Shown one piece after another: positions 3,958-46,178 of a DNA stretch of 64,000 nucleotides (its first letter is position 1; each line of letters opens with the position of its first letter). Below the pieces are notes generated by a model. The model ran no database searches. It was given only the letters and a program-made list of their open reading frames with translations, and was not told the DNA's origin. A program made the translations under genes and the position numbers. The stretch spans positions 1 to 64,000 of the forward strand of contig NZ_JAHXBG010000027.1 of NCBI RefSeq assembly GCF_020103725.1. The letters run 5' to 3'. The stretch comes from Hyalangium gracile. GTDB lineage: Bacteria > Myxococcota > Myxococcia > Myxococcales > Myxococcaceae.

Positions 3958-6195
3958 CTAGTAGGTGCCCTTCATCGTCGTGTTGCTGTAGGCCTGGTAG
4001 CCGTAGGAGCAGGCGTACCAGGTGCCAGCCGCCGGGCTGTTGATGGTGCACGTCTCGGTGTTGCCCGCGGTGTACGGACGGCAGGCGTAGGTGCTGGTGG
4101 TCGGCGCCGAGCCCTGGCGGACGTACAGGTCCGCGTCGCCCGTGCCACCGGCCTGGTTGAAGACCACCTTGGTCTTGCCAGACGGAACCGTCAGCGTCCA
4201 GCACGTCCAGGTGGACTTGGCGCCAGAGTACGCGGCCGAAGCCACGCCGTTGGTCAGCGTGTCGCCCGTCGGAGGCGTGGTGCCGGAGTAGGTGCCCTTG
4301 ATCGACAGGCCCGAGAAGGTGGAGTACGCGTTGATCATCACGTACCAGTCGCCCGCGGCCGGGTTGTTGTGCGTGCACGTCTCCGTGTTGCCGGAGGCGT
4401 ACGGACGGCAGTCATAGGTGCTGGCGTCCGGAGCCGCGCCGAACTTGGTGTACAGGTCGGCGTCGCCCGTGCCACCGCTCATCTCGAACTTCAGGCTGGT
4501 CTGGCCGGCCGGAACGGTCAGCTTGTAGTACTTGTTGGCGCCCGTGCTGGCGGACTGGCCCGTCAGCGCCACGCCGTTGCTCAGCGGGGTGGCAGTGGGC
4601 GGCGGCACGACGATGCCCACGCCCACGGCCTCCCAGGCCTGCGTCGTGGAGGCCTTCTCGGCCGCGCCGTAGAACTGCTCGGCCTTCTGCTCGGTGCACG
4701 TCTTGGCGCCCGCGAAGTTGGTGCTCGCCACCATGCAGTTGGCGTTGGCCTCGTAGAAGATCTTCCCCGCCTTCTGGATGCCGATGCCCGCCACGTTGAC
4801 GGTCGTCTTGTTGCGCGGGTGGGTGCCACCGGTGGACAGCAGCTTGAACGCCAGGTTGGCGATGCCCGAGTTCCAGTGCACGCCGCCGTTGTCCGAGGAG
4901 CCCGTGTAGCGCTCGGGGTAGTAGTCCGTCGACGAGCCGTCCTGGGTGGGGTTGCCCATGTAGCGCAGGGCGTCACCCGCCGTGGCCGGCGTCCACACGT
5001 CATCACCGATCATCCACACGGCCGCGTCCACCACCCAGCCCTTCGTCCAGGCCTCGCAGTAGGCGGAGAAGATGTCGCTCATGCCCTCGTTGAGCGCGCC
5101 CGACTCGTACGAGTAGGTGAGGTTGGACTCGGAGCTGGTCACCGCGTGCGTCAGCTCGTGCACCGTCACGTCCAGCGACTTGCCCAGCGGGGCCGACTGC
5201 ACGCCGTCACCGTCGCCGTACACCATCTGGGTGCCGTTCCAGAAGGCGTTCACGTAGTTGCTGCTGTAGTGCACCGTGCTCTTCAGCTGCGCGCCCGTGC
5301 CGGTGTACGAGTCGCGGCCGAAGTTCTGGAAGTAGCACTGATAGGTGGTGCCCAGGTGGTTGTAGTTGTCGTCCACGTGGGAGTCGCCGGTGGCCGCGCC
5401 GCCCTCGGAGCGCTTGAGGGTGCCTGGCAGGCTGGTGCCGTTGTTGGCGGTGTGCACCGCGCGGTTCATCGCCGAGTGGATGGTCGGAGCGCGCAGGGCC
5501 ACCTGGCCGTTGGTCGCGTTCACGTACACCATGTCCCTCACCGGCAGACCGTCGCGCTCACCCGTGACGATCGTCTCGTACGCCAGGACGAGCTTGCCGT
5601 GGTCGCCATGCACATAGACCAGGCGGCCGGTGCTCTCCGAGCGGAAGAGCATGCCCGCACCGCGCGCGGCGAAGGCGGCGGCCTCGGGGGCGATGGTCGG
5701 CTTGGTGGGCACCTGGACGCCCGGGGCCACGTCATACGCCGAGCTGTTGGCGGCGTAGACCGTGCCCTTGGGGTTGACCATGAGCAGCAGCTCCGCGCCC
5801 ACCACCTGCAGACCGTTCTTGGTCTGGCTGTAGCGCAGGTACGTGTGGCCCTGGCTGTCCGTGGTGGTGCTCTTGAGAACCAGGTCCTGGGCCTGCATGC
5901 GGAACGCCGCAGCCACGGCGGGCAGCGCCGCCTGCGCGTCTACCCCGACCAGCCCCTGGCTCACCTGGCCCAGGTTGCCCTTGATGAAGGCCGGCGTGAC
6001 CTTGTCAGCCTGGGTCGCCAGCACGCGCGTGTTGCCCAGCACGCTCAGGGCCTGCTGAATGTCCGTGCCGTCCTTCGCCTCGGCATTGGTCATCAGCTCA
6101 TCGGCGTCCACCTGCTGCTGCTCGGCGGTGCCGCACGCAGCGTAGGTCAGGCCCAACCACGCCGCACAGAAAGCCTTCAGGATTTTGTTGCTCAA
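3958..6195 (-). CDS. secreted M4 (thermolysin-family) metalloprotease with two PPC domains
   Basis: A 745-aa zinc endopeptidase precursor. It begins with a lipoprotein-type signal (LGLTYAAC, Cys21). An FTP/PepSY propeptide spans about residues 45-220 and inhibits and folds the enzyme in this family. The catalytic domain is about 240-530, with zinc motif HELTH at 346-350, the third zinc ligand in ALNEGMSD (Glu370) and the transition-state His in GGVHWNSG (His440). Two bacterial pre-peptidase C-terminal (PPC) domains follow (about 538-620 and 645-745), each with the GGTGDADLY signature. The start is TTG, chosen because it sits 7 bases after a strong GGAGG. Expected to act at or beyond the cell surface in protein degradation, consistent with a predatory or proteolytic lifestyle. 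It is a stand-alone gene. Confidence 0.93.
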   Translation of the reverse strand: MSNKILKAFCAAWLGLTYAACGTAEQQQVDADELMTNAEAKDGTDIQQALSVLGNTRVLATQADKVTPAFIKGNLGQVSQGLVGVDAQAALPAVAAAFRMQAQDLVLKSTTTDSQGHTYLRYSQTKNGLQVVGAELLLMVNPKGTVYAANSSAYDVAPGVQVPTKPTIAPEAAAFAARGAGMLFRSESTGRLVYVHGDHGKLVLAYETIVTGERDGLPVRDMVYVNATNGQVALRAPTIHSAMNRAVHTANNGTSLPGTLKRSEGGAATGDSHVDDNYNHLGTTYQCYFQNFGRDSYTGTGAQLKSTVHYSSNYVNAFWNGTQMVYGDGDGVQSAPLGKSLDVTVHELTHAVTSSESNLTYSYESGALNEGMSDIFSAYCEAWTKGWVVDAAVWMIGDDVWTPATAGDALRYMGNPTQDGSSTDYYPERYTGSSDNGGVHWNSGIANLAFKLLSTGGTHPRNKTTVNVAGIGIQKAGKIFYEANANCMVASTNFAGAKTCTEQKAEQFYGAAEKASTTQAWEAVGVGIVVPPPTATPLSNGVALTGQSASTGANKYYKLTVPAGQTSLKFEMSGGTGDADLYTKFGAAPDASTYDCRPYASGNTETCTHNNPAAGDWYVMINAYSTFSGLSIKGTYSGTTPPTGDTLTNGVASAAYSGAKSTWTCWTLTVPSGKTKVVFNQAGGTGDADLYVRQGSAPTTSTYACRPYTAGNTETCTINSPAAGTWYACSYGYQAYSNTTMKGTY

Positions 6196-6473: not shown

Positions 6474-7667
6474 ATGAAGTTTCCATCTCCACTGCAGCGT
6501 CTGTGTTTGGGCCTGGGGGCGCTGGTGGTGATTTCGAGCTGCAGCGCGCGTCCGATACGAGACACCGCGCCCGTGGCGCCGCCTCCTCCGAGGCTCACGG
6601 TGGCCCAGGTGGCGCGGCTGCTGCCGCCGAGCGTGAAGGAGCCCGAGGGCTGGAGCCGGGACGTGCTGTCGGCGCTGGAGCAGCTCCGGGTGTACCCCTC
6701 TGCGGAGCCCGTCTGCCAGGTGCTGGCCGTCATCGAGCAGGAGTCCGGCTTCCAGGCCAACCCGGTGGTGAAGGGGCTGCCGCGCATCGTCCGCCAGCGG
6801 CTGGAGGCCTACGCGGGAAGGCTGGGCGTGGTGGGGCGCAAGGCCCTGCAGGCGCTGCTCGAGCACCGGGCCCCGGGCCAATCCCTCTCATTCGAGAAGC
6901 GGCTCCAGCAGGTGCGGACGGAGAGAGACCTGGATCGGCTCTTCCGCGAGTTGCTGACGGCGTACGAGGAGCAATACCCGGCGGTGTACACGGCGGCGGA
7001 CCTGGCCAGCGAGCTGTTCACCTCGCGTGGGCTGGCGGACCTGAACCCCATCACCACCGCTGGCTCCATGCAGGTGAGCGTGCGCTACGCGGTGGAGCAG
7101 TCCGACGAGGATCGCCCGGAGGCGGAGGTGCGGGAGGAGATGTACACGCGGGCAGGGGGCGTGCGCTTCGGCACGTCGCGGCTGCTGGGGTACGAGGCCG
7201 GCTACGAGCTGCCGCTCTACCGCTTCGCGGACTACAACGCGGGCTTCTACGCCTCGCGCAACGCGGCGCTGCAGGCGCAGGTGAACGAGCTGATGGGGCT
7301 GAAGCTGACGGCGGATGGGGACTTGCTCCTCTATGGCGCCGAGGGCGAGCCCCGGGACGAGGACAGCCGCACCCTCACCGCGCTGCTGGCGTTCCGCGCC
7401 CGCTACGCGCCGAAGCTGAGCGAGCGCCAGCTGCGCAAGGACGTCCTCGAGGAGAAGAAGGCGGACTTCGAGGAGACGGAGACGTGGCGCGCCGTGAAGC
7501 GGACGTATGAGCGGGTGAAGGGCAAGCGCCCCGCGTACGCGCAGCTGCCGGAGGTGGTCATCCGCAGCCCGAAGCTGTCCGGGGAGAAGAGCACCGGGTG
7601 GTTCGCGCGCTCGGTGGATCAGCGCTTCCAGCGGTGCATGACCCGCTACCGCGCGCAGGCGAAGTAG
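6474..7667 (+). CDS. DUF1615 (YaiW-like) lipoprotein
   Basis: A 397-aa predicted lipoprotein (lipobox VVISSC, Cys23) of the DUF1615 family, whose E. coli member YaiW is an outer-membrane surface lipoprotein. The region VLAVIEQESGFQANP resembles the catalytic-Glu segment of lysozyme-like transglycosylases, and ITTAGSMQVSVRYA and YRFADYNAGFYASRNAA also match that fold. The protein may therefore act on peptidoglycan or be a descendant of such enzymes; this is inference. The family assignment rests on the overall pattern and length. The ATG is preceded by AGGA. It is divergent from the M4 protease. Confidence 0.75.
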   Translation: MKFPSPLQRLCLGLGALVVISSCSARPIRDTAPVAPPPPRLTVAQVARLLPPSVKEPEGWSRDVLSALEQLRVYPSAEPVCQVLAVIEQESGFQANPVVKGLPRIVRQRLEAYAGRLGVVGRKALQALLEHRAPGQSLSFEKRLQQVRTERDLDRLFRELLTAYEEQYPAVYTAADLASELFTSRGLADLNPITTAGSMQVSVRYAVEQSDEDRPEAEVREEMYTRAGGVRFGTSRLLGYEAGYELPLYRFADYNAGFYASRNAALQAQVNELMGLKLTADGDLLLYGAEGEPRDEDSRTLTALLAFRARYAPKLSERQLRKDVLEEKKADFEETETWRAVKRTYERVKGKRPAYAQLPEVVIRSPKLSGEKSTGWFARSVDQRFQRCMTRYRAQAK

Positions 7668-39317: not shown

Positions 39318-40937
39318 ATGGCGGACCCGAAGGTCTCTGACATCTCGACAGCTGCCACGCCGACCCGAAACTCCGAACAGGCCACAGGTCTCGTTCCCGC
39401 CCTGACCATCGTCTCCCATCCCACGCCTCAGCGTGCCGGCGAGCGGCTGCTGCTCGGAGGGCTGAGCTCGGGCGGAACGGTGGCCATCTCCCGCCTCGGT
39501 CCCGACTTCCTGCGCCCTGGCGGCACCCTGGGCATGCCCCTGGCGGACATGTTCCTCAGCCGCAAGCCCGTGGTGTTCGAGCGCGCGGGCGAGGCGGGCG
39601 TGAGGATCCGGGTGGAGGAGGGAGGCAGCGCGGTCCGCGTGGGGGACGAGCCGCTCGTCGGCAGCCGGGACTTCGGGCCCGAGGCGCTCGCCCAGGGAGT
39701 TCCCCTCGTGCTGGCCGAGCGCATCGTGCTGCTGCTCCATCAGACGAGCTCGCCCGAGGCGGCCACCGGCGACGAGCTGGGCATGGTGGGCATGAGCGCG
39801 GGCACCCGCCGCGTGCGCGAGGACATTGCGCGCGTGGCGGACCTGAAGGTGCCCGTCCTCATCCGTGGCGAGACGGGCTCGGGCAAGGAGCTGGTCGCGC
39901 GCGCCATCCACGATCACAGCCCGCGCCGCGCCGGCCCCTTCATCAGCGTCAACCTGGGAGCGATCCCCAAGGAGCTGGCCGCCGCCGAGCTCTTCGGCGC
40001 GCGCAAGGGTGCCTTCACGGGCGCCACGCAGGATCGCGAGGGCTTCTTCCGCGCCGCCCACGGCGGCACGCTCTTCCTCGATGAGGTGGGCGAGGCTCCA
40101 CCCGAGGTGCAGGTGCTGCTCCTGCGCGTGCTGGAGACGGGCGAGCTGTACCCGGTGGGCGGGCACACGCCCGTGGCCGTGGATGTGCGGCTGATCACCG
40201 CCACGGACGCCGACCTGGATGAGCGGATCCGCCAGGAGCGCTTCAAGGCCCCGCTGCTGCACCGGCTGGCGGGCTACACGATCGAGGTTCCGCCCCTGAG
40301 AGAGCGCCGGGAGGACATCGGCGTGCTCTTCCTCCACTTCGCCCGCCAGGAGCTGGAGGAGCTGGGAGAGCTCCACCGGCTGGAGGCCGCGGCCTCGCAG
40401 ACAGAGCCGTGGCTGCCTCCCTCGCTGGCGGTGCGCCTGCTGCGCTTCGCCTGGCCCGGCAACGTCCGCCAGCTGCGCAACTTCACGCGGCAGATCATCA
40501 TCGGCAGCCGGGGCCTGCCCGAGCTGCAGGCCAGTCCCCGGCTCGAGCAGGAGCTGGACGCCGCCACGCCACCCGTCTCCGGGCGCTCCGCCGCCGCACC
40601 GTCCGCCCCGCGACAGGAGCCGGCCGAGCCCCAGGAGCCGGCGCCTGCACGGCGCAAGCCCTCCGACGTGAGCGACGCGGAGCTGCTGGCCGCGCTGCGC
40701 GGCACCTCGTGGGACATCAAGGCCGCCGCCGAGCGACTGGGCATCACCCGCCCCTCGCTCTACATGCTGATCGATCGCAGCCCCAGCCTGCGGACGGTGG
40801 GGGACCTGAGCGCGGAGGAGATCACCCGCTGCTTCCACGAGTGCCAGGGAGATGTGGACGCGATGGTGCAGCGCCTCGAGGTCTCCAAGCGCGGGCTCCA
40901 GCGTCGCATCCGGGAGCTCGGCCTGAGCGAGTCGTGA
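39318..40937 (+). CDS. sigma-54-dependent activator with FHA-like N-terminal domain
   Basis: A 539-aa bacterial enhancer-binding protein. Residues ~25-142 resemble an FHA domain (LGMPLADMFLSRKPVVFERA, RIRVEEGGSAVRVGDEPL), a phospho-threonine reader, instead of a response-regulator receiver. The AAA+ core follows: Walker A GETGSGKE (184-191), GAFTGA (231-236, the sigma-54 contact loop, intact), Walker B LFLDEVGE (252-259) and the FAWPGNVRQLRN region. The C-terminus holds a Pro-rich linker and Fis-type helix-turn-helix segments (IKAAAERLGITRPSLYMLID and DAMVQRLEVSKRGLQRRIRE). The ATG at 39318 is used because the longer frame is antisense to the upstream gene. FHA-type activators in myxobacteria are controlled by Ser/Thr kinases, and a kinase gene lies two genes away. 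Confidence 0.9.
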   Translation: MADPKVSDISTAATPTRNSEQATGLVPALTIVSHPTPQRAGERLLLGGLSSGGTVAISRLGPDFLRPGGTLGMPLADMFLSRKPVVFERAGEAGVRIRVEEGGSAVRVGDEPLVGSRDFGPEALAQGVPLVLAERIVLLLHQTSSPEAATGDELGMVGMSAGTRRVREDIARVADLKVPVLIRGETGSGKELVARAIHDHSPRRAGPFISVNLGAIPKELAAAELFGARKGAFTGATQDREGFFRAAHGGTLFLDEVGEAPPEVQVLLLRVLETGELYPVGGHTPVAVDVRLITATDADLDERIRQERFKAPLLHRLAGYTIEVPPLRERREDIGVLFLHFARQELEELGELHRLEAAASQTEPWLPPSLAVRLLRFAWPGNVRQLRNFTRQIIIGSRGLPELQASPRLEQELDAATPPVSGRSAAAPSAPRQEPAEPQEPAPARRKPSDVSDAELLAALRGTSWDIKAAAERLGITRPSLYMLIDRSPSLRTVGDLSAEEITRCFHECQGDVDAMVQRLEVSKRGLQRRIRELGLSES

Positions 40938-40965: not shown

Positions 40966-41020
40966 CTGACACGTCAGTGACAGCCACTGCCCTGTCAGAC
41001 ACCCTGGCTGACGCGTCAGC
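40966..41020 (+). promoter_or_regulatory. cluster of palindromic activator sites (UAS 1)
   Basis: Three related palindromes lie 60-110 bases before a -24/-12 promoter: CTGAC-AC-GTCAG (40966-40977), TGTC-A-GACA (40993-41001) and the perfect 14-mer GCTGAC-GC-GTCAGC (41007-41020). The first and third are centred 42 bases apart, four helical turns, so both face the same side of the DNA. The same motif family, including the identical 11-mer TGACACGTCAG, recurs at 45241-45300. Confidence 0.72.
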
Positions 41021-41076
41021 CGCTCGCGAGTACCAGGGTATGGCGCGCGAGCCCTGGCACTTCGAGCCTGGACGGG

Positions 41077-41093
41077 CTGGTACGCTGCCTGCA
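41077..41093 (+). promoter_or_regulatory. sigma-54 (-24/-12) promoter
   Basis: CTGGTACGCTGCCTGCA at 41077-41093 matches the consensus TGGCACG-N4-TTGCA with the invariant GG (41079-41080) and GC (41091-41092) exactly 10 bases apart. It lies about 55 bases before the start codon of the 120-aa gene and downstream of the palindrome cluster UAS 1. Confidence 0.78.
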
Positions 41094-41146
41094 CTTACGT
41101 CCACGGCAACCTTCAGGAGTCGCTCGAAAGGAGCGGAGTCGATCCC

Positions 41147-41509
41147 ATGCCCCTCACCGTCTACATCAAGACCGATAAAGTGACCTACAGCACCCCGGAG
41201 CCCCTCGTGAGACCCGGCGAGGCGGTGCACTTCGAAATGGACGGGCGGACGGACACCGTCAACGTGACGTTCGATTCGGGTAGTCCCTTCGGGACGGAGC
41301 CCAGCATCACGTTGAATGGCAGCGATCCGGCGCAGAACGCAACCGACAGGACGATCGCCACCGACGCGCGAGGGAACTATCCCTTCAGCATCATACCGGT
41401 ATCGACGCCGGCGCCGGGGGGAGGAGGGATCGGAAGGATGGATCCCGACAAGCCCGGCACCGTTCATGGAGATCTGGACGTGGAGTCGGACGGGCCGCCC
41501 AAGTGGTAG
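41147..41509 (+). CDS. small predicted beta-rich protein under sigma-54 control
   Basis: A 120-aa protein I do not recognise. It has no signal peptide or membrane segment. Residues ~1-85 read as alternating beta strands (LTVYIKTDKVTYSTPEPLV, EAVHFEMDGRTDTVNVTFDS, NYPFSIIPV), reminiscent of a small beta-sandwich such as a cupredoxin-like or immunoglobulin-like fold. The tail is Gly/Pro-rich and acidic (GGGGIGRMDPDKPG). An AAAGGAGCGGAG ribosome-binding region precedes the ATG. The -24/-12 promoter and upstream palindromes predict activation by an enhancer-binding protein, most simply the one encoded immediately upstream. It converges on the Ser/Thr kinase gene. Confidence 0.75.
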   Translation: MPLTVYIKTDKVTYSTPEPLVRPGEAVHFEMDGRTDTVNVTFDSGSPFGTEPSITLNGSDPAQNATDRTIATDARGNYPFSIIPVSTPAPGGGGIGRMDPDKPGTVHGDLDVESDGPPKW

Positions 41510-41535
41510 GTCCTCCCTCGAGGCGGTTCCGCGAA

Positions 41536-44500
41536 CTAGGGGCGGTCGAGCGTCACGTGCTGTGAGGCGAGCGGACTGCCCCACTCCACCATCAGGTTGG
41601 GGTTGTCGGTGAGCGCTCGCTCCAACTCGCCCCGGGCCTCGCTCCGCCAGTCCCGCCGCTGGGTCAGGGGAGCGGGGCTCTCCGCCAGCGCCATGAGCAG
41701 GCTGGAGCGAGCGGCCCGCGCATGCGCCCACCGGGGCCGAGCCGCCAGCGCCTGATGGATGAGCTCGAGCCCCCGCCGCAGCACCGGAGCGGGCTCTCCT
41801 CCCGTCGTCGCCAGCCACAGCGCCCAGTCCCGGTGGAGCAGGGCCGCGGAGAGCCGGTACTCCTGCCACTCGGGGTCCGCCTCCACCGCCTGCTGGAAGG
41901 CCTGGGCCGCCTGCTCGAAGTCCTCGCTCCGGGCCCGTCCCTGCCGCGCCAACCAGCGCGCCTGATCTCCGCGAAGCTCCCCCAGGTACCGCAGGGCGTA
42001 GCCCATGCCCGGGCGAAGCTCGAGCGCATGGCGCAGCGCCTCCGTGCCCTGAGCGAGCTCCGCGCGAGGCTCCCTTCCCTGGCGCAGCGCCCACAGGGCC
42101 TGAAGGTGGGAGAGCTTGCCCAGGTTGGCCCAGAACTGGGCGTTGCGTGGCAGCTTCTCCAGCGCCTGGCGATAGGCCGTCGCGGCCGCCAGGGTGCTGG
42201 CGCTCGGGTCCTCTCCCCGGCGGAGCTGGTACAGGGCCCGGAAGGCGTGGACCTCGGCGAGGTTGTTGGAGAGGAAGGCCTGCTGCGGAGCCAGGGACCG
42301 CGCCTTCTCGAGGGCCGCCTGGGCCTGGTCTAGCAGCGCAAAGGCGTCTCCCCCGTCCTCCCAGGCCAGCTCGGCCTTCCACATGAGCGCGCCGGCCAGC
42401 ACGTCGTGGAACTGCGAGAGCTTGCCGTTGATGGCGAGCCCCTTGCCGAACAGCTCGATCGCCTGTTCCAGCTCCGGGCTGGGCCCTTCTCCCCGGTTGT
42501 ACAGGCGGCGCGCCCTCAGCTCATGCACCTGCCCGCCGTAGTAGTAGGGAGCGTAGTGCCCCGGGTCGATGCTCCGGGCCCGCTCGAGCGCCACCCGGGC
42601 CTGCTCGAGGTCGGCATCGGCGTCGGGGGTGCTCGGGTTCGACGCACGCTTGAAGTACGCGGTGCCCAGGTTGAGCCAGGCGTCCATCCGGCTCGCGTCG
42701 AGCTCGATGGCGGCGAGGTAGGCGGCGATCGCCTGGGAGCGGTGCTCGAGTGAGTCCGCGCCGCGCTGCTCCTCGGCGTCCGCCCAGACCTTGAAGCTGT
42801 GTCCCCGCTCGGTGTGGAAGACGAAGTCGCGGTCCTGCGGTCGGACGCGCTCGAAGGCCGCGATGGCATCCCGGAGCTGCTCGCTCGGATCCTCGCCCCG
42901 CCCCTGGCGGTAGGCGGCCCAGCGGCGCAGGACATAGGCCCGCTCCATGAGGAGGCGGGGGTGCTCGGAGCCACCCAACTCGGGCGCTCGGAGGGTGGCG
43001 AGCGCCTTCTCCAGCAGCGGGAGCACCTCTCCGCCCTGCTGGGCCACCTGCTCCGCCATCCGCCGGTGGAGCTGCGACTCCAGCACCCGGGCCTTGACGT
43101 GGTCCGGCGCGACGGTGAGCGCGCGCCCCACCGCCTCCAGCCCCTTCTCGTAGTAGGGCCGGACCTCCCCCTGGCCATAGAGCTCCAGGGTCATCGCGGT
43201 GAGCTCCAGCCGCGCCAGTCCGCTGTAGGCAGCGGGCTCGCTCTCGCCGATGTCGGCGGCGGTGGCCAGGGAATGCCGGGTCGCCTCGAGATCCGCCAGG
43301 GCCCCGGCGCGATCGCCCTGGTTCAGGCGCACGGTGGCCCTGTCGAGCAGGATGTCGCCGCGCAGCAGGGGGGCTTCGTAGAACCAGGGGTTCGCGATGC
43401 CGGGGGCCTCCAGGTGCTTCAGCGCTTCCTCGTGGCGTCCCTCGTAGAAGGCCAGGAGCGCGGCCACGTACTCGGGAGGAGCCACCTCGGCCCCCTGGCT
43501 CTGACGCAGATAGCCGAGCGCCGGATCCCGGAAGCCACGCTCGAGCTCGCGGCGGCGGGCCTCGCGCTGCTCGGCGTTGCGGATGCGGCCCGCCTCCAGG
43601 AGCTGATCCCGGTAGAGCTGTCCGAGCGTCAGCGCCAGCGCGTAGGCCACCCGAGGCTCGCGATAGCCGCGCTGCCAGGCGGACTCGAGCCGCGCGCGAG
43701 CGCCTTCGGTGTCTCCCAGCGCGAGCAGGGCCCGGCCCAGCGCATAGGAGCCGGGGCCCTCGGCCCGCTCTCCGCCCTCGCGCACCTCGGCCTCCAGCTC
43801 GCGCATGCTGGCCTGGAGCGCCTGGCGATCGGCGCGCGTGTCATGCAGCGGAGCCATGGAGGAGTAGCGCACCATGGCCTCGATGCGCTCCACCCGCTCG
43901 GTGAGGCCGCGGGAGATGCGCTCGCTGAGCACCGCCTCGCGTCGGGCGAGGATGACCTGGCCGGCGGCCACGCCCATCACCATGAACGTCGCGGAGCCCA
44001 GGGCCACCGCGAGCCGGTGCTTGCGAGCCTTCTTGCGCAGCCGGTACCAGGCGCCCGCCGCGCGCGCGAGCACTGGCTCTCCCGAGAGGAACCGCTCCAG
44101 GTCCTCGGCCAGGGCTCGCGCCGAGTCGTAGCGTGCGGAGCGCTCCTTCTCGAGGCACTTGAGGACGATGGCCTCCAGATCCAGCGGCAGGTCGGGCACC
44201 AGGGCCCGAGGCGGGCGCGGCTCCTCGGACTGGATGCGGTTGACCACCTCCAGGGCGTTGATGCCGGCGAAGGGCGGCTGGCCGGTGAGCACCTGATAGA
44301 GCGTGGCGCCCAGGCTGTAGACGTCCACGCGCCGATCCAGCTGAGCCACCTCGCCCCGGGCCTGCTCCGGAGCCATGTAGTGGGGCGTGCCCAGCACCGC
44401 GCCCGTGGCCGTGTGCTCGCCGTGCCAGTCGCGCGCCAGGCCAAAGTCCATCACGTACGGCTTGAGGCCGCCGTCCTCGGTGCGCTCCACCAGCACGTTG

Positions 44501-45183
44501 GAGGGCTTGAGATCGCGGTGGATGAGGCCCGCGCGATGGGCCGCGTGCACGCCCTCGGCGACGTCGCGCATCACCCGGATCTTCTGCTCCAGGGGAAGCT
44601 CGGGAGCGACGTGGCTGAGCGAACGTCCCTCCACGTACTGCATGGCGATGTAGGCGCGGCCTCGGACCTCGCCGACCTCGTACATCTCGCAGACGCGCTC
44701 GTGGTGGACACGGGCCTGGGCGCGGGCCTCGGAGAGAAAGCGCTGCGCGAGCTCGGGGCTCCCATCCCTCACGAACTTGAGCGCCACGTTGCGGCGCAGG
44801 CGCGGATCATACGCGAGGAACACCTGCCCCATGCCGCCCTGGCCCAGGAAGCGCACCGGCTGGTAGCGCTCCCAGTTCGGCAGCGGGAAGACGGGCTCCG
44901 TGGGAGAGGCAGCCGGGGTGGCGGCTCCCGGCTGTCGGGTGGGAGGCTCCTCGGGCTGCGCCCCGGCTCCCTGCGGGGACTCACGCTGGAGGTCTCCCCG
45001 CAGGGAGGAGAGAGTCTCGGGGGAGAGCTGGCCCCGCTCCAGCAGGAGCTCCAGGGGGCTGCGTCCCAGGCGGAGCACCTCCGCGCGCAGGGGCTCGAGC
45101 TGGTCCCGGGACAGAACGCCCTCCACCAGCGCCAGGTGGAGCTCGTCCTCGTACTCGGGACGCATCGAACTCGACGGATTCAC
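41536..45183 (-). CDS. Ser/Thr protein kinase with TPR-rich C-terminal region
   Basis: A 1,215-aa Hanks-type kinase. A short helical N-terminal region precedes the kinase domain (about 105-370): glycine loop GQGGMGQV (114-121), Lys136, catalytic HRDLKPSN (222-229), DFGLA (246-250) and [11 protein letters not shown] single membrane segment follows (about 391-412, [20 protein letters not shown]). The remaining ~800 residues are helical repeats of TPR type and would face the periplasm. It is complete and should be active. It lies between two sigma-54 promoters with shared activator sites and two genes from the FHA-like activator, suggesting it phosphorylates or controls that activator (inference). 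Start is GTG; an ATG six codons later is possible. Confidence 0.93.
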
Positions 45184-45240
45184 GCCACGAGCATACGGAT
45201 TTCCCTGGGGTGTACGGAACCACCGGAAGGGTTTCGCGGC

Positions 45241-45300
45241 GTGTCAGCGCTGACACTGCCGTGACAGTGCGAAGAAATGACACGTCAGCCGCCGTGTCAC
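45241..45300 (+). promoter_or_regulatory. cluster of palindromic activator sites (UAS 2)
   Basis: Contains the perfect 16-mer GTGTCAGCGCTGACAC (45241-45256), a GTGACAG half-site (45261-45267), TGACACGTCAG (45278-45288, identical to UAS 1) and GTGTCAC (45294-45300). It lies 50-110 bases upstream of the -24/-12 promoter at 45348 and also within 120 bases of the divergent kinase gene start at 45183. Confidence 0.72.
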
Positions 45301-45347
45301 CCGGGTGGGCTCGCTGGGCCTGGGAGGGAGACTTCGAGCAGGCGAGC

Positions 45348-45364
45348 AGGCACGTGGTATGCAC
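45348..45364 (+). promoter_or_regulatory. sigma-54 (-24/-12) promoter
   Basis: AGGCACGTGGTATGCAC at 45348-45364 fits TGGCACG-N4-TTGCA, with GG (45349-45350) and GC (45361-45362) exactly 10 bases apart. The expected transcript start is about 60 bases before the lipoprotein ATG at 45435. The element ACTTCGAGC lies 10 bases upstream of its GG, and 12 bases upstream in the other promoter at 41077. Confidence 0.78.
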
Positions 45365-45434: not shown

Positions 45435-46178
45435 ATGAACACCCCGACCCTGTTTCGCATCCGCTGGCTGACTGGCCTGGCGGCCCTGCTGTCGCTGACC
45501 GCCTGCGGCGAGGACACCGAGGAGACGCCCCCGCCCCAGGAGCTGGTCTGCGACGCGGAGACCTACTCCGCGGGCGTCCGCGACGCCGCCGAGCCGGACT
45601 CGGAGGACGTCTACACGGGCCTGTGGGCGATCAGCCCGTCCAACCCGAAGCTGACCTGGAACGCGGACAAGACGGCGGTGAAGATGGCGGTGTACACCAC
45701 CTTCACCGGCTACCAGGCGGGAGACAACGTCCTGTCGCGCGAGGTGTGGGTGACCGCGGCGCCCCAGGTGCAGGAGCTGTGCAAGACGCTCCCCGCGGAG
45801 CAGATCGTCCCGCGCATCAATCAGTTCCTCGGCCTGCCCCCGGCCACCGCGGCGGACAACGCGCGCTTCTTCGTGGAGATGTGGGTGAAGCCCGGGGACA
45901 TGTTCCGGCCGTGTCCGGACGCGGAGATCGACGACACCTCGTGCAGCCTGACGTTCCCGGCCACGGCCACCAACGAGCACAAGGCCTGGATGAACGGCAA
46001 CTACGCGTACAGCTACGGCTTCTGGCAGAAGACGCTCTACCCGTGGACGGGGCTGGGCTACACCTACGACTGGTGCAACGCCGAGACGCACGTGGGCGGC
46101 AGCGAGTTCGTCATCCGCGCCGGCTCCACCGTCACCGTGACGGGCCAGTTCGACCGGGCCACCTACTGCGCTCCGTAG
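45435..46178 (+). CDS. lipoprotein of unknown function under sigma-54 control
   Basis: A 247-aa predicted lipoprotein: signal and lipobox LAALLSLTAC (Cys25), followed by an acidic/Pro spacer and a globular domain of ~210 residues. The domain has five to seven cysteines (VCDAE, ELCKT, RPCPD, TSCSL, DWCNAE, TYCAP) likely to form disulfides outside the cytoplasm, and a repeated aromatic pattern (YAYSYGFWQKTLYPWTGLGY). No family recognised. The ATG follows GGAGACG. Its -24/-12 promoter and palindromes match those of the 120-aa gene, so both should be switched on together. Confidence 0.8.
   Translation: MNTPTLFRIRWLTGLAALLSLTACGEDTEETPPPQELVCDAETYSAGVRDAAEPDSEDVYTGLWAISPSNPKLTWNADKTAVKMAVYTTFTGYQAGDNVLSREVWVTAAPQVQELCKTLPAEQIVPRINQFLGLPPATAADNARFFVEMWVKPGDMFRPCPDAEIDDTSCSLTFPATATNEHKAWMNGNYAYSYGFWQKTLYPWTGLGYTYDWCNAETHVGGSEFVIRAGSTVTVTGQFDRATYCAP

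Follow-up and report, generated by a model that had tools for sequence, protein, structure and literature searches.

A 64,000-nucleotide (nt) stretch of the Hyalangium gracile genome (contig NZ_JAHXBG010000027.1, positions 1 to 64,000; hereafter, the window) carries side by side the genes of a sigma-54 activator with an FHA-fold N-terminus, a small protein, and a membrane Ser/Thr kinase, with palindromes and sigma-54 promoters on either side of the kinase gene (Table 1). This locus is one copy of a recurring cassette consisting of the FHA activator, the small gene, and a convergent gene for a kinase with a transmembrane (TM) segment and a TPR-rich half. Gene identities, folds, conserved linkage, site enrichment, and a relation between the activator's recognition helix and one base of its candidate sites were computed. 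From these data, we propose that the locus is probably one copy of an amplified three-gene phospho-signaling cassette, in which the kinase would act on the FHA activator, and the activator, through the palindromes, on the small gene, a lipoprotein gene, and unlinked genes. On sequence grounds, the activator very probably switches on the small neighboring gene and some distant genes via matching palindromes.

Recurrence of the cassette and its sites

A search of 39 genomes returned seven full-length copies of the activator in the H. gracile genome (six paralogs besides that of the window) and, among the matches listed, one to six copies of at least 58% identity in 12 of the 22 other genomes of the family. 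Matches that were full-length or cut by a contig end numbered 41; all except G006:C24 were studied, giving 40 loci. A further 26 loci were taken from named genomes, 8 of which coincided with loci already included and were dropped, and the remaining 18 brought the set to 58. The named-genome loci come from Corallococcus, Archangium, Pyxidicoccus, Myxococcus, Sorangium cellulosum So0157-2, one Acidobacteriota, and one unplaced bacterium.

A kinase of the window's family lies convergently downstream of the activator at 34 of the 40 loci, the window included; the kinases of the other 33 are 44-71% identical to that of the window, and 110-2052 nt separate the activator stop codon from the kinase, as measured to the alignment end. 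In most loci, the small gene sits between the two. The six loci where this kinase is missing are L039, L045, L056, L059, L060, and L069, with a more distant kinase nearby at L056 and L059. At three loci of the Acidobacteriota genome (L121-L123), the kinase gene is downstream on the same strand as the activator gene, so the association survives a changed gene order. The kinase beside an FHA activator that the initial annotation had pointed out is accordingly a conserved pair. At L122, from the Acidobacteriota metagenome-assembled genome, two small genes (5861-6163 and 6500-6880) lie between activator and kinase, and their products carry similar tails (ATLDIQINP and AQLDIQLNP).

Identities among activators and among kinases covary (r = 0.86 for the kinase domain and 0.79 for the TPR half; 32 pairs, 0/2000 in a permutation test), with nearest neighbors agreeing in 20 of the 32 pairs. 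L044, which has a frame problem, and L057, which is cut by the contig end, were left out of this comparison. The mirrored identities reflect joint descent, not contact.

In the 150 nt that follow the activator genes of the 58 loci, 31 palindromes of the form [CT]GACNNGTC[AG] were found, compared with 0.93 ± 0.95 (maximum 5) in dinucleotide-preserving shuffles, and they are spread over 18 loci. The outer base of these sites tracks the residue that follows the Tyr of the recognition helix. Where this residue is Met, Val, or Asn, all nine sites (6 loci) read TGAC..GTCA (T form), and where it is Asp, 17 of 19 sites (10 loci, one of them from Sorangium) read CGAC..GTCG (C form), with the other 2, at L065 and L066, mixed. 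Both sites of L053, which has Glu, are mixed, and L044, whose helix is divergent, has one C-form site. Other loci with Met/Val/Asn, Asp, or Glu residues have no strict site. At L048-L051 (Val type), the same half-sites were seen by eye to lie further apart and were kept outside the count. A tree of 57 activators (L057, cut at the contig end, was left out) placed the Asn clade and the Met/Val clade, each well supported, apart from one another, and site-bearing Asp-type activators occur both in a large clade and in L061/L114; because the deepest order of the tree is unresolved, independent helix changes are not countable. Together, the excess of 31 sites over 0.93 and the helix-to-base relation are good evidence of binding by the neighboring activator, and they strongly support the palindrome as its predicted site.

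Promoters accompany the cassette as well. A sigma-54 score of at least 13, from a matrix built from the sigma-54 consensus, was found between -60 and +190 of the activator stop codon at 32 of the 58 loci, while none of the 230 control windows taken from activator coding regions reached it.

Within the window itself, TGACNNGTCA or TGTCAGNNCTGACA occurs at four places in 64 kb, all just upstream of the two sigma-54 sites. Exact matches to CTGACNNGTCAG are limited to the two upstream ones, and the 11-mer TGACACGTCAG is common to positions 40967 and 45278. Across the 11.7-Mb genome, CTGACNCGTCAG gave 12 strand-hits, 3 of which (two sites) are at this locus. Sites 1a and 1b are 42 nt apart, a spacing found again in L046 and L047. 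When up to two mismatches were allowed, 27 palindromes were counted in the window versus 45 in shuffles, which is below chance; only exact sites are therefore meaningful.

These results bear out most of what the initial annotation had read from this region. One palindrome family with an identical 11-mer is present at both promoters, with positions and sequences that proved correct, and the proposed distance of 50-110 bases agrees with the 60-113 nt (first promoter) and 61-108 nt (second promoter) measured from the palindromes to the GG of the -24 element. The two promoters, one on either side of the kinase gene, rank first and second among sigma-54 sites on both strands with the same matrix, the next-best score being 13.1, and each combines GG-N10-GC, consensus bases flanking it, and a candidate activator site upstream. 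The "exact -24/-12 fit" claimed for them holds for GG-N10-GC and its spacing but not for the whole of TGGCAC-N5-TTGC, from which each differs by 2 mismatches.

Table 1. Features of the cassette locus in the 64-kb window
Feature	Position	Strand	Basis or remark
Sigma-54 activator, FHA-fold N-terminus, 539 aa	39318-40937	+	Pfam, motif, predicted fold
FHA-like domain, residues 23-145	39384-39752	+	AlphaFold model, Foldseek, VIA
Recognition helix ITRPSLYMLIDRSP	40743-40784	+	Alignment; Met483 goes with DNA type
Activator site 1a CTGACACGTCAG	40966-40977	none	Palindrome, predicted site
Activator site 1b CTGACGCGTCAG	41008-41019	none	Palindrome, predicted site
Sigma-54 promoter, small gene	41078-41093	+	TGGTACGCTGCCTGCA; score 15.8, top of window
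Small cassette gene, 120 aa, cupredoxin-like, no Cys, tail GDLDV	41147-41509	+	Profile, model
Ser/Thr kinase, one TM segment, TPR-rich C-terminal half, 1215 aa	41536-45183	-	Pfam
Activator site 2a GTGTCAGCGCTGACAC	45241-45256	none	Same half-sites, inverted arrangement; predicted site
Activator site 2b ATGACACGTCAG	45277-45288	none	Palindrome, predicted site
Sigma-54 promoter, lipoprotein gene	45348-45363	+	AGGCACGTGGTATGCA; score 14.3, second in window
Lipoprotein, 7 Cys, 247 aa, no known family	45435-46178	+	Pfam, NCBIfam, Cys count

The activator and the kinase

Pfam assigned residues 157-322 of the activator to Sigma54_activat (the AAA+ domain PF00158; E 5.3e-60, 202.4 bits against a cut-off of 20.2) and residues 454-482 to HTH_8. 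The intact GAFTGA loop reported earlier is at residue 231, and with an AAA+ domain, this loop, and a Fis-type helix-turn-helix, the protein has the features of a sigma-54 enhancer-binding protein. Its full-length myxobacterial homologs are mostly 58-78% identical.

The N-terminus had been called FHA-like, and its predicted structure agrees. The Pfam scan of the activator gave no FHA family, and a profile of the region run against PDB chains returned six weak rows with no FHA domain among them. Because the sequence profile brought up no FHA chain, the assignment rests on the predicted fold. An AlphaFold model of residues 1-152 built from 26 sequences (mean predicted local distance difference test [pLDDT] 84.9) has the FHA beta-sandwich. 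Its best PDB match by Foldseek was the FHA domain of ArnA (E 4.9e-4), which was also the best by VIA (Z 12.9, root-mean-square deviation [rmsd] 2.8, 110 residues aligned); that of DgcB (Z 12.3, rmsd 2.0, 99 aligned), GarA, EmbR, and others matched as well. In the model, then, the activator N-terminus folds as an FHA domain. Arg59 and Ser81, which we take to be the residues that usually hold phosphothreonine in FHA domains, are invariant in the 26-row alignment.

In the kinase, Pkinase (residues 107-359, E 1.2e-43) and TPR were recognized by Pfam, the VAxK, HRDxKxxN, DFG, and APE motifs are complete, and the TM segment is at residue 393. Of the 34 kinases, 33 have HRD and DFG motifs and a single TM segment that lies about 144-149 residues past DFG; the remaining row, L049, was read in the wrong frame. 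On the N-terminal side of the TM segment, there are 5-8 Lys/Arg, with fewer on the C-terminal side in 32 of the 33 kinases and equal numbers in L068. Because of this excess, the predicted topology suggests a cytoplasmic kinase domain and a TPR half outside the inner membrane.

A different sigma-54 activator at L141 (G003:C5), 45% identical in the AAA part and with a more usual-looking FHA motif, adjoins another kinase about 2.6-4.4 kb after an unlinked homolog of the window's lipoprotein.

Small gene, lipoprotein gene, and distant targets

The small gene was first described as one output of the circuit, a beta-type protein of 120 amino acids (aa). The beta-type description stands, with a fold that appears cupredoxin-like, but the gene is the third member of the cassette and not an arbitrary output. 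A profile of 16 small proteins had plastocyanin as its first PDB match (E 0.014), and cupredoxins made up 28 of the 30 rows listed, each weak singly. The best of five structural models had a pLDDT of 80.1 (45-57 for the other four). With Foldseek, amicyanin and plastocyanin were matched at E 6.1e-4, and the best VIA match (Z 8.7, rmsd 2.3, 83 aligned) was barely above the level that the tool calls "typical." The copper ligands of cupredoxins are a Cys, two His, and a Met. There is no Cys in the window's protein, and it therefore has no type 1 copper site; by its model, it is cupredoxin-like without copper ligands and is not classed as a copper protein. No export signal was visible by eye in it.

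Its relatives vary greatly: some are signal-less proteins of about 115-130 aa, some are lipoproteins of about 165-190 aa, and others are Thr/Gly-rich peptides of 36-46 aa. Small proteins were assigned at 44 of the 58 loci (the other 14 are outside the tail count); a lipobox was flagged in 10 of them, and more were seen by eye. A tail of the form G-x-[LIV]-x-[VI] lies within the last 45 residues in 37 of the 44, compared with 14 of 128 other, automatically predicted open reading frames (ORFs). Among the eight short peptides (36-46 aa), six retain it. The match in L044 is probably accidental, being far from the C-terminal end. At L062, L064-L067, and L042, a strong sigma-54 site precedes a shrunken small gene whose Thr/Gly-rich product of 44-46 aa keeps a tail such as GDVPVVPN or GDVIIVSG at its end; in the 36-aa versions of L063 and L070, the exact tail is missing. 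The product at the small-gene position of L044 (G000:C13) is 90 aa long, contains the repeat TQNPTEPNGLVG.LRK twice, and has nothing obvious in common with the other small proteins.

The gene beyond the kinase encodes the Cys-rich lipoprotein noted at the outset as being of unknown function, and neither a Pfam family nor an NCBIfam family above the cut-off was found for it. Homologs are present in 9 other genomes of the 39, with best matches 53-82% identical. Hyalangium versicolor (G006) is the nearest named relative by synteny, with GyrA 94% identical. Its syntenic locus (G006:C68, L140), from the GyrA/p37 side to the TPR gene, lacks both the activator and the kinase; it keeps the small gene (40% identical) and the lipoprotein gene (81-82%). 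Upstream of that small gene are TGACACGTCA and TGACGTGTCA, 22 nt apart, and then CGGTACGACGCCTGCA (score 11.9). The lipoprotein gene is preceded by AGGCACGCGAACTGCA; the sigma-54 site before it has the same score (14.3) and distance (-87) as in the window. The activator-kinase cassette of H. versicolor is on a separate contig with its own small gene and sites. The cassette of G013 itself contains the lipoprotein gene, which follows two sites of the mixed type. Upstream of the homologs in G001, G003, G004, G005, G017, and G022, no site was found within about 350 nt and no promoter scored 10 or more; a 12-kb map of G022 has one C-form palindrome 608 nt upstream. The G009 homolog has no site in the roughly 170 nt of upstream sequence present on the contig. 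As judged from these sequences, the pairing of small-gene and lipoprotein outputs is real and is limited to part of the lineage. The four-gene layout with two shared outputs thus recurs in relatives in part: both outputs have sites in H. versicolor and the lipoprotein gene is within the G013 cassette, but six genomes show neither a site nor a clear promoter directly upstream.

The circuit had been read as self-contained, a view that is contradicted by the six further activator paralogs of the same genome and by site-promoter pairs before unlinked genes. In the H. gracile genome, pairs of TGACNNGTCA 8-38 nt apart numbered 7, at 6 places, versus 0 for the reversed pattern; one of these places, C4:390895, looks unrelated. 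In the 39 genomes, a T-form site (TGACNNGTCA) combined with a promoter gave 27 hits versus 1 for the control. All but one of the 27 fall in the 13 genomes that have a family activator of at least 58% identity (about 131 Mb), and 1 falls in the other 26 genomes (about 147 Mb), the sizes being sums of rounded genome sizes. One H. gracile paralog, L039, has nearly the same recognition helix as the window's activator and no kinase beside it, and a given target in their own genome may belong to either of the two.

Fifteen of the 27 hits were examined, leaving out 5 cassette hits, 6 that resemble coding starts, and one in G022. Within the 50 nt upstream, a second GAC..GTC lies at 11, 20-22, or 31-32 nt in 12 of the 15, spacings close to whole DNA turns; L092, L187, and L188 have none. 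Twelve satellite promoters, with L090 and L091 of the H. gracile genome counted in, precede a clear reading frame. By eye, 6 of the 12 products look exported (L177, L181, L182, L184, L186, and L188). Pfam identified trypsin-type proteases at L182 and at L188 (in G016, which carries no close family activator), a dirigent/AOC-like protein at L186, a GON domain at L181, a sugar-lactone oxidase at L073, a mechanosensitive channel at L090, and a class 3 lipase at L091; 3 of the 10 products scanned had no Pfam family.

Several of these places show further particulars. At L058 (G000:C8:44516-44566), three TGACNNGTCA palindromes with 20-21-nt spacing lie upstream of a minus-strand gene whose 759-aa product appears terpene-synthase-like by eye; its promoter is uncertain. 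At L091 (G000:C49:20054-20083), paired palindromes and TGGCACCTGCCCTGCA precede the lipase gene; after it, on the opposite strand, come two genes that look kinase-like by eye. L092, L178, and L179 are apparently related, with a site and a TGGTA promoter and no convincing ORF directly downstream, the ORFs there being in an unlikely frame. At L073 (G006:C18:32980-33065), three palindromes in 21-nt steps and a sigma-54 site lie immediately upstream of, and divergent from, a cassette kinase. This promoter precedes the oxidase gene, so that its position matches that of the window's second promoter but its cargo differs, and its sites are mostly of the T form, though the activator of that cassette is of the Asp type.

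Proposed mechanism and comparison with known systems

The following sequence of events would account for these data. The membrane Ser/Thr kinase would sense through its TPR half and phosphorylate a threonine, either its own or that of a partner; the neighboring activator would read this phosphothreonine mark with its FHA domain and be switched on. Activator dimers would sit on yGAC-NN-GTCr palindromes, often two or more, about whole DNA turns apart, with a -24/-12 promoter some 40-110 nt downstream, and would reach the sigma-54 polymerase by looping. Their targets would be the adjacent small gene with its cupredoxin-like product, unlinked genes (about half with exported-looking products), and, at this locus, the lipoprotein gene on the far side of the kinase. 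Binding, phosphorylation, the order of the steps, and the signal are what we infer; the DNA half is well supported, and for the phosphorylation half the basis is gene linkage, the predicted fold, and what is generally known of FHA domains.

Several results weigh against this proposal. The activator nearest to the window's by sequence (G020, 78%) has no such kinase adjoining. The usual FHA motif is S-x-x-H, and the corresponding residues here, S81-R82-K83-P84, are invariant in the 26-row alignment with Pro84 at the usual His position. No strict palindrome was found in the 150 nt scanned at 40 of the 58 loci or in the last 400 nt of the activator gene at any of the 58, and several of the 18 site-bearing loci are close relatives. 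Conservation of the palindromes in related genomes, which had been expected of a true site, is therefore partial: they recur beside activators far above the shuffles but are missing in strict form from most loci. In the clade of lipoprotein-type cassettes, there is often a promoter but no recognized site, so the site rule is not family-wide. Six of the T-form hits resemble the starts of coding sequences conserved among close relatives, and the C form combined with a promoter was not enriched across the 39 genomes (32 hits versus 93 for the reversed control).

The alternative that deserves most attention, although we think it unlikely, accepts that the activator drives both promoters and denies that the adjacent kinase acts on it: the FHA domain would read another kinase or serve in dimerization, and the linkage would be a matter of joint descent. 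Joint descent alone accounts for the mirrored identities, L039, L045, L060, and L069 keep the FHA region without such a kinase, and the domain is both unrecognized by Pfam and altered at the usual His. Such a reading has to contend with a pair kept at 34 of 40 loci, with Acidobacteriota kinases directly downstream in the other orientation (once with two small genes between), and with invariant Arg59 and Ser81, the residues that usually hold phosphothreonine. That the palindromes belong to a different regulator, for example, a CRP-type factor of the MrpC kind, with the activator working elsewhere, is very improbable. MrpC-type sites read GTGTC-N8-GACAC, and the site at 45241 does start with GTGTC and end with GACAC; however, that site has a spacer of 6, none of the other three sites matches the pattern, the outer base tracks the neighboring activator's helix across the 18 site-bearing loci, and the T-form site with a promoter is nearly absent (1 hit) from the 26 relatives without a close family activator. 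Least credible of all is that the palindromes are chance or compositional. The relaxed matches and the C form with a promoter, neither of which exceeded its control, fit that view, but it is contradicted by the 31 palindromes where 0.93 were expected and by the 7 paired T-form sites of the H. gracile genome versus 0 in the reversed control.

Going beyond the phospho-signaling cassette itself, one may speculate, as an unlikely but bold reading, that the small protein, fast-evolving except for its C-terminal strand, is the cassette's own signal, this conserved tail being read by the TPR half of the cognate kinase as a feedback loop. The paralogs might then be insulated channels of self- or kin-sensing, each with a DNA address set largely by one helix residue. 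Against this stands a 120-aa protein without a visible export signal, given a TPR half predicted to be outside.

To our knowledge, the wiring between myxobacterial Ser/Thr kinases and sigma-54 activators is mostly unknown. Here, a kinase can be named along with an activator, a DNA site, and a target, and a genome holds several paralogous versions of the set. Prediction of DNA specificity from one residue makes kinase-to-promoter wiring testable by exchange, a sequence-based listing of FHA-activator targets becomes possible, and the tail conserved among small proteins that differ in all else may point to the signal sensed by these kinases.

Myxococcus xanthus has several sigma-54 activators with an FHA domain, some of them near Ser/Thr kinase genes, and the activator of the present cassette is of the same type. 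Such activators of M. xanthus were reportedly described by Jelsbak, Givskov, and Kaiser in 2005. In Mycobacterium tuberculosis, the transcription activator EmbR is tied to a membrane Ser/Thr kinase through its FHA domain; it is not known to carry an AAA domain or to belong to the sigma-54 activators. Its structure (2fez) matched the FHA model with a Z of 11.5 (rmsd 2.1, 99 aligned), but its FHA domain is at the C-terminal end (chain range 282-382), whereas that of the window's activator is at the N-terminus. Cupredoxins such as plastocyanin and amicyanin resemble the 120-aa protein in its predicted fold; that protein differs in having no Cys. In the parts of the sources covered, 99 Ser/Thr kinases and 53 sigma-54 activators are predicted for M. 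xanthus (PMC4320627), and the Nla28 regulon has repeated half-sites upstream of the sigma-54 promoters of many targets (PMC9765219). The Nla28 half-site given there, CT(C/G)CG(C/G)AG, differs from the palindromes found here (PMC9765219). The covered parts of PMC4320627, PMC2875238, PMC7159879, PMC12288465, PMC6971385, and PMC9765219 do not describe the cassette or its sites. Likewise, the cassette, the sites, and the helix-to-base relation were not found in the portion of the myxobacterial FHA, sigma-54, and kinase literature covered, which lacks key papers. FHA-type sigma-54 activators were thus already known; the literature covered gave no instance of the third gene, the site family, or the helix-to-base relation. 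Compared with the known FHA activators, the present locus is distinguished by a defined cassette of kinase, small gene, and activator, by a family of sites whose outer base follows the recognition helix, and by a third gene whose product appears cupredoxin-like.

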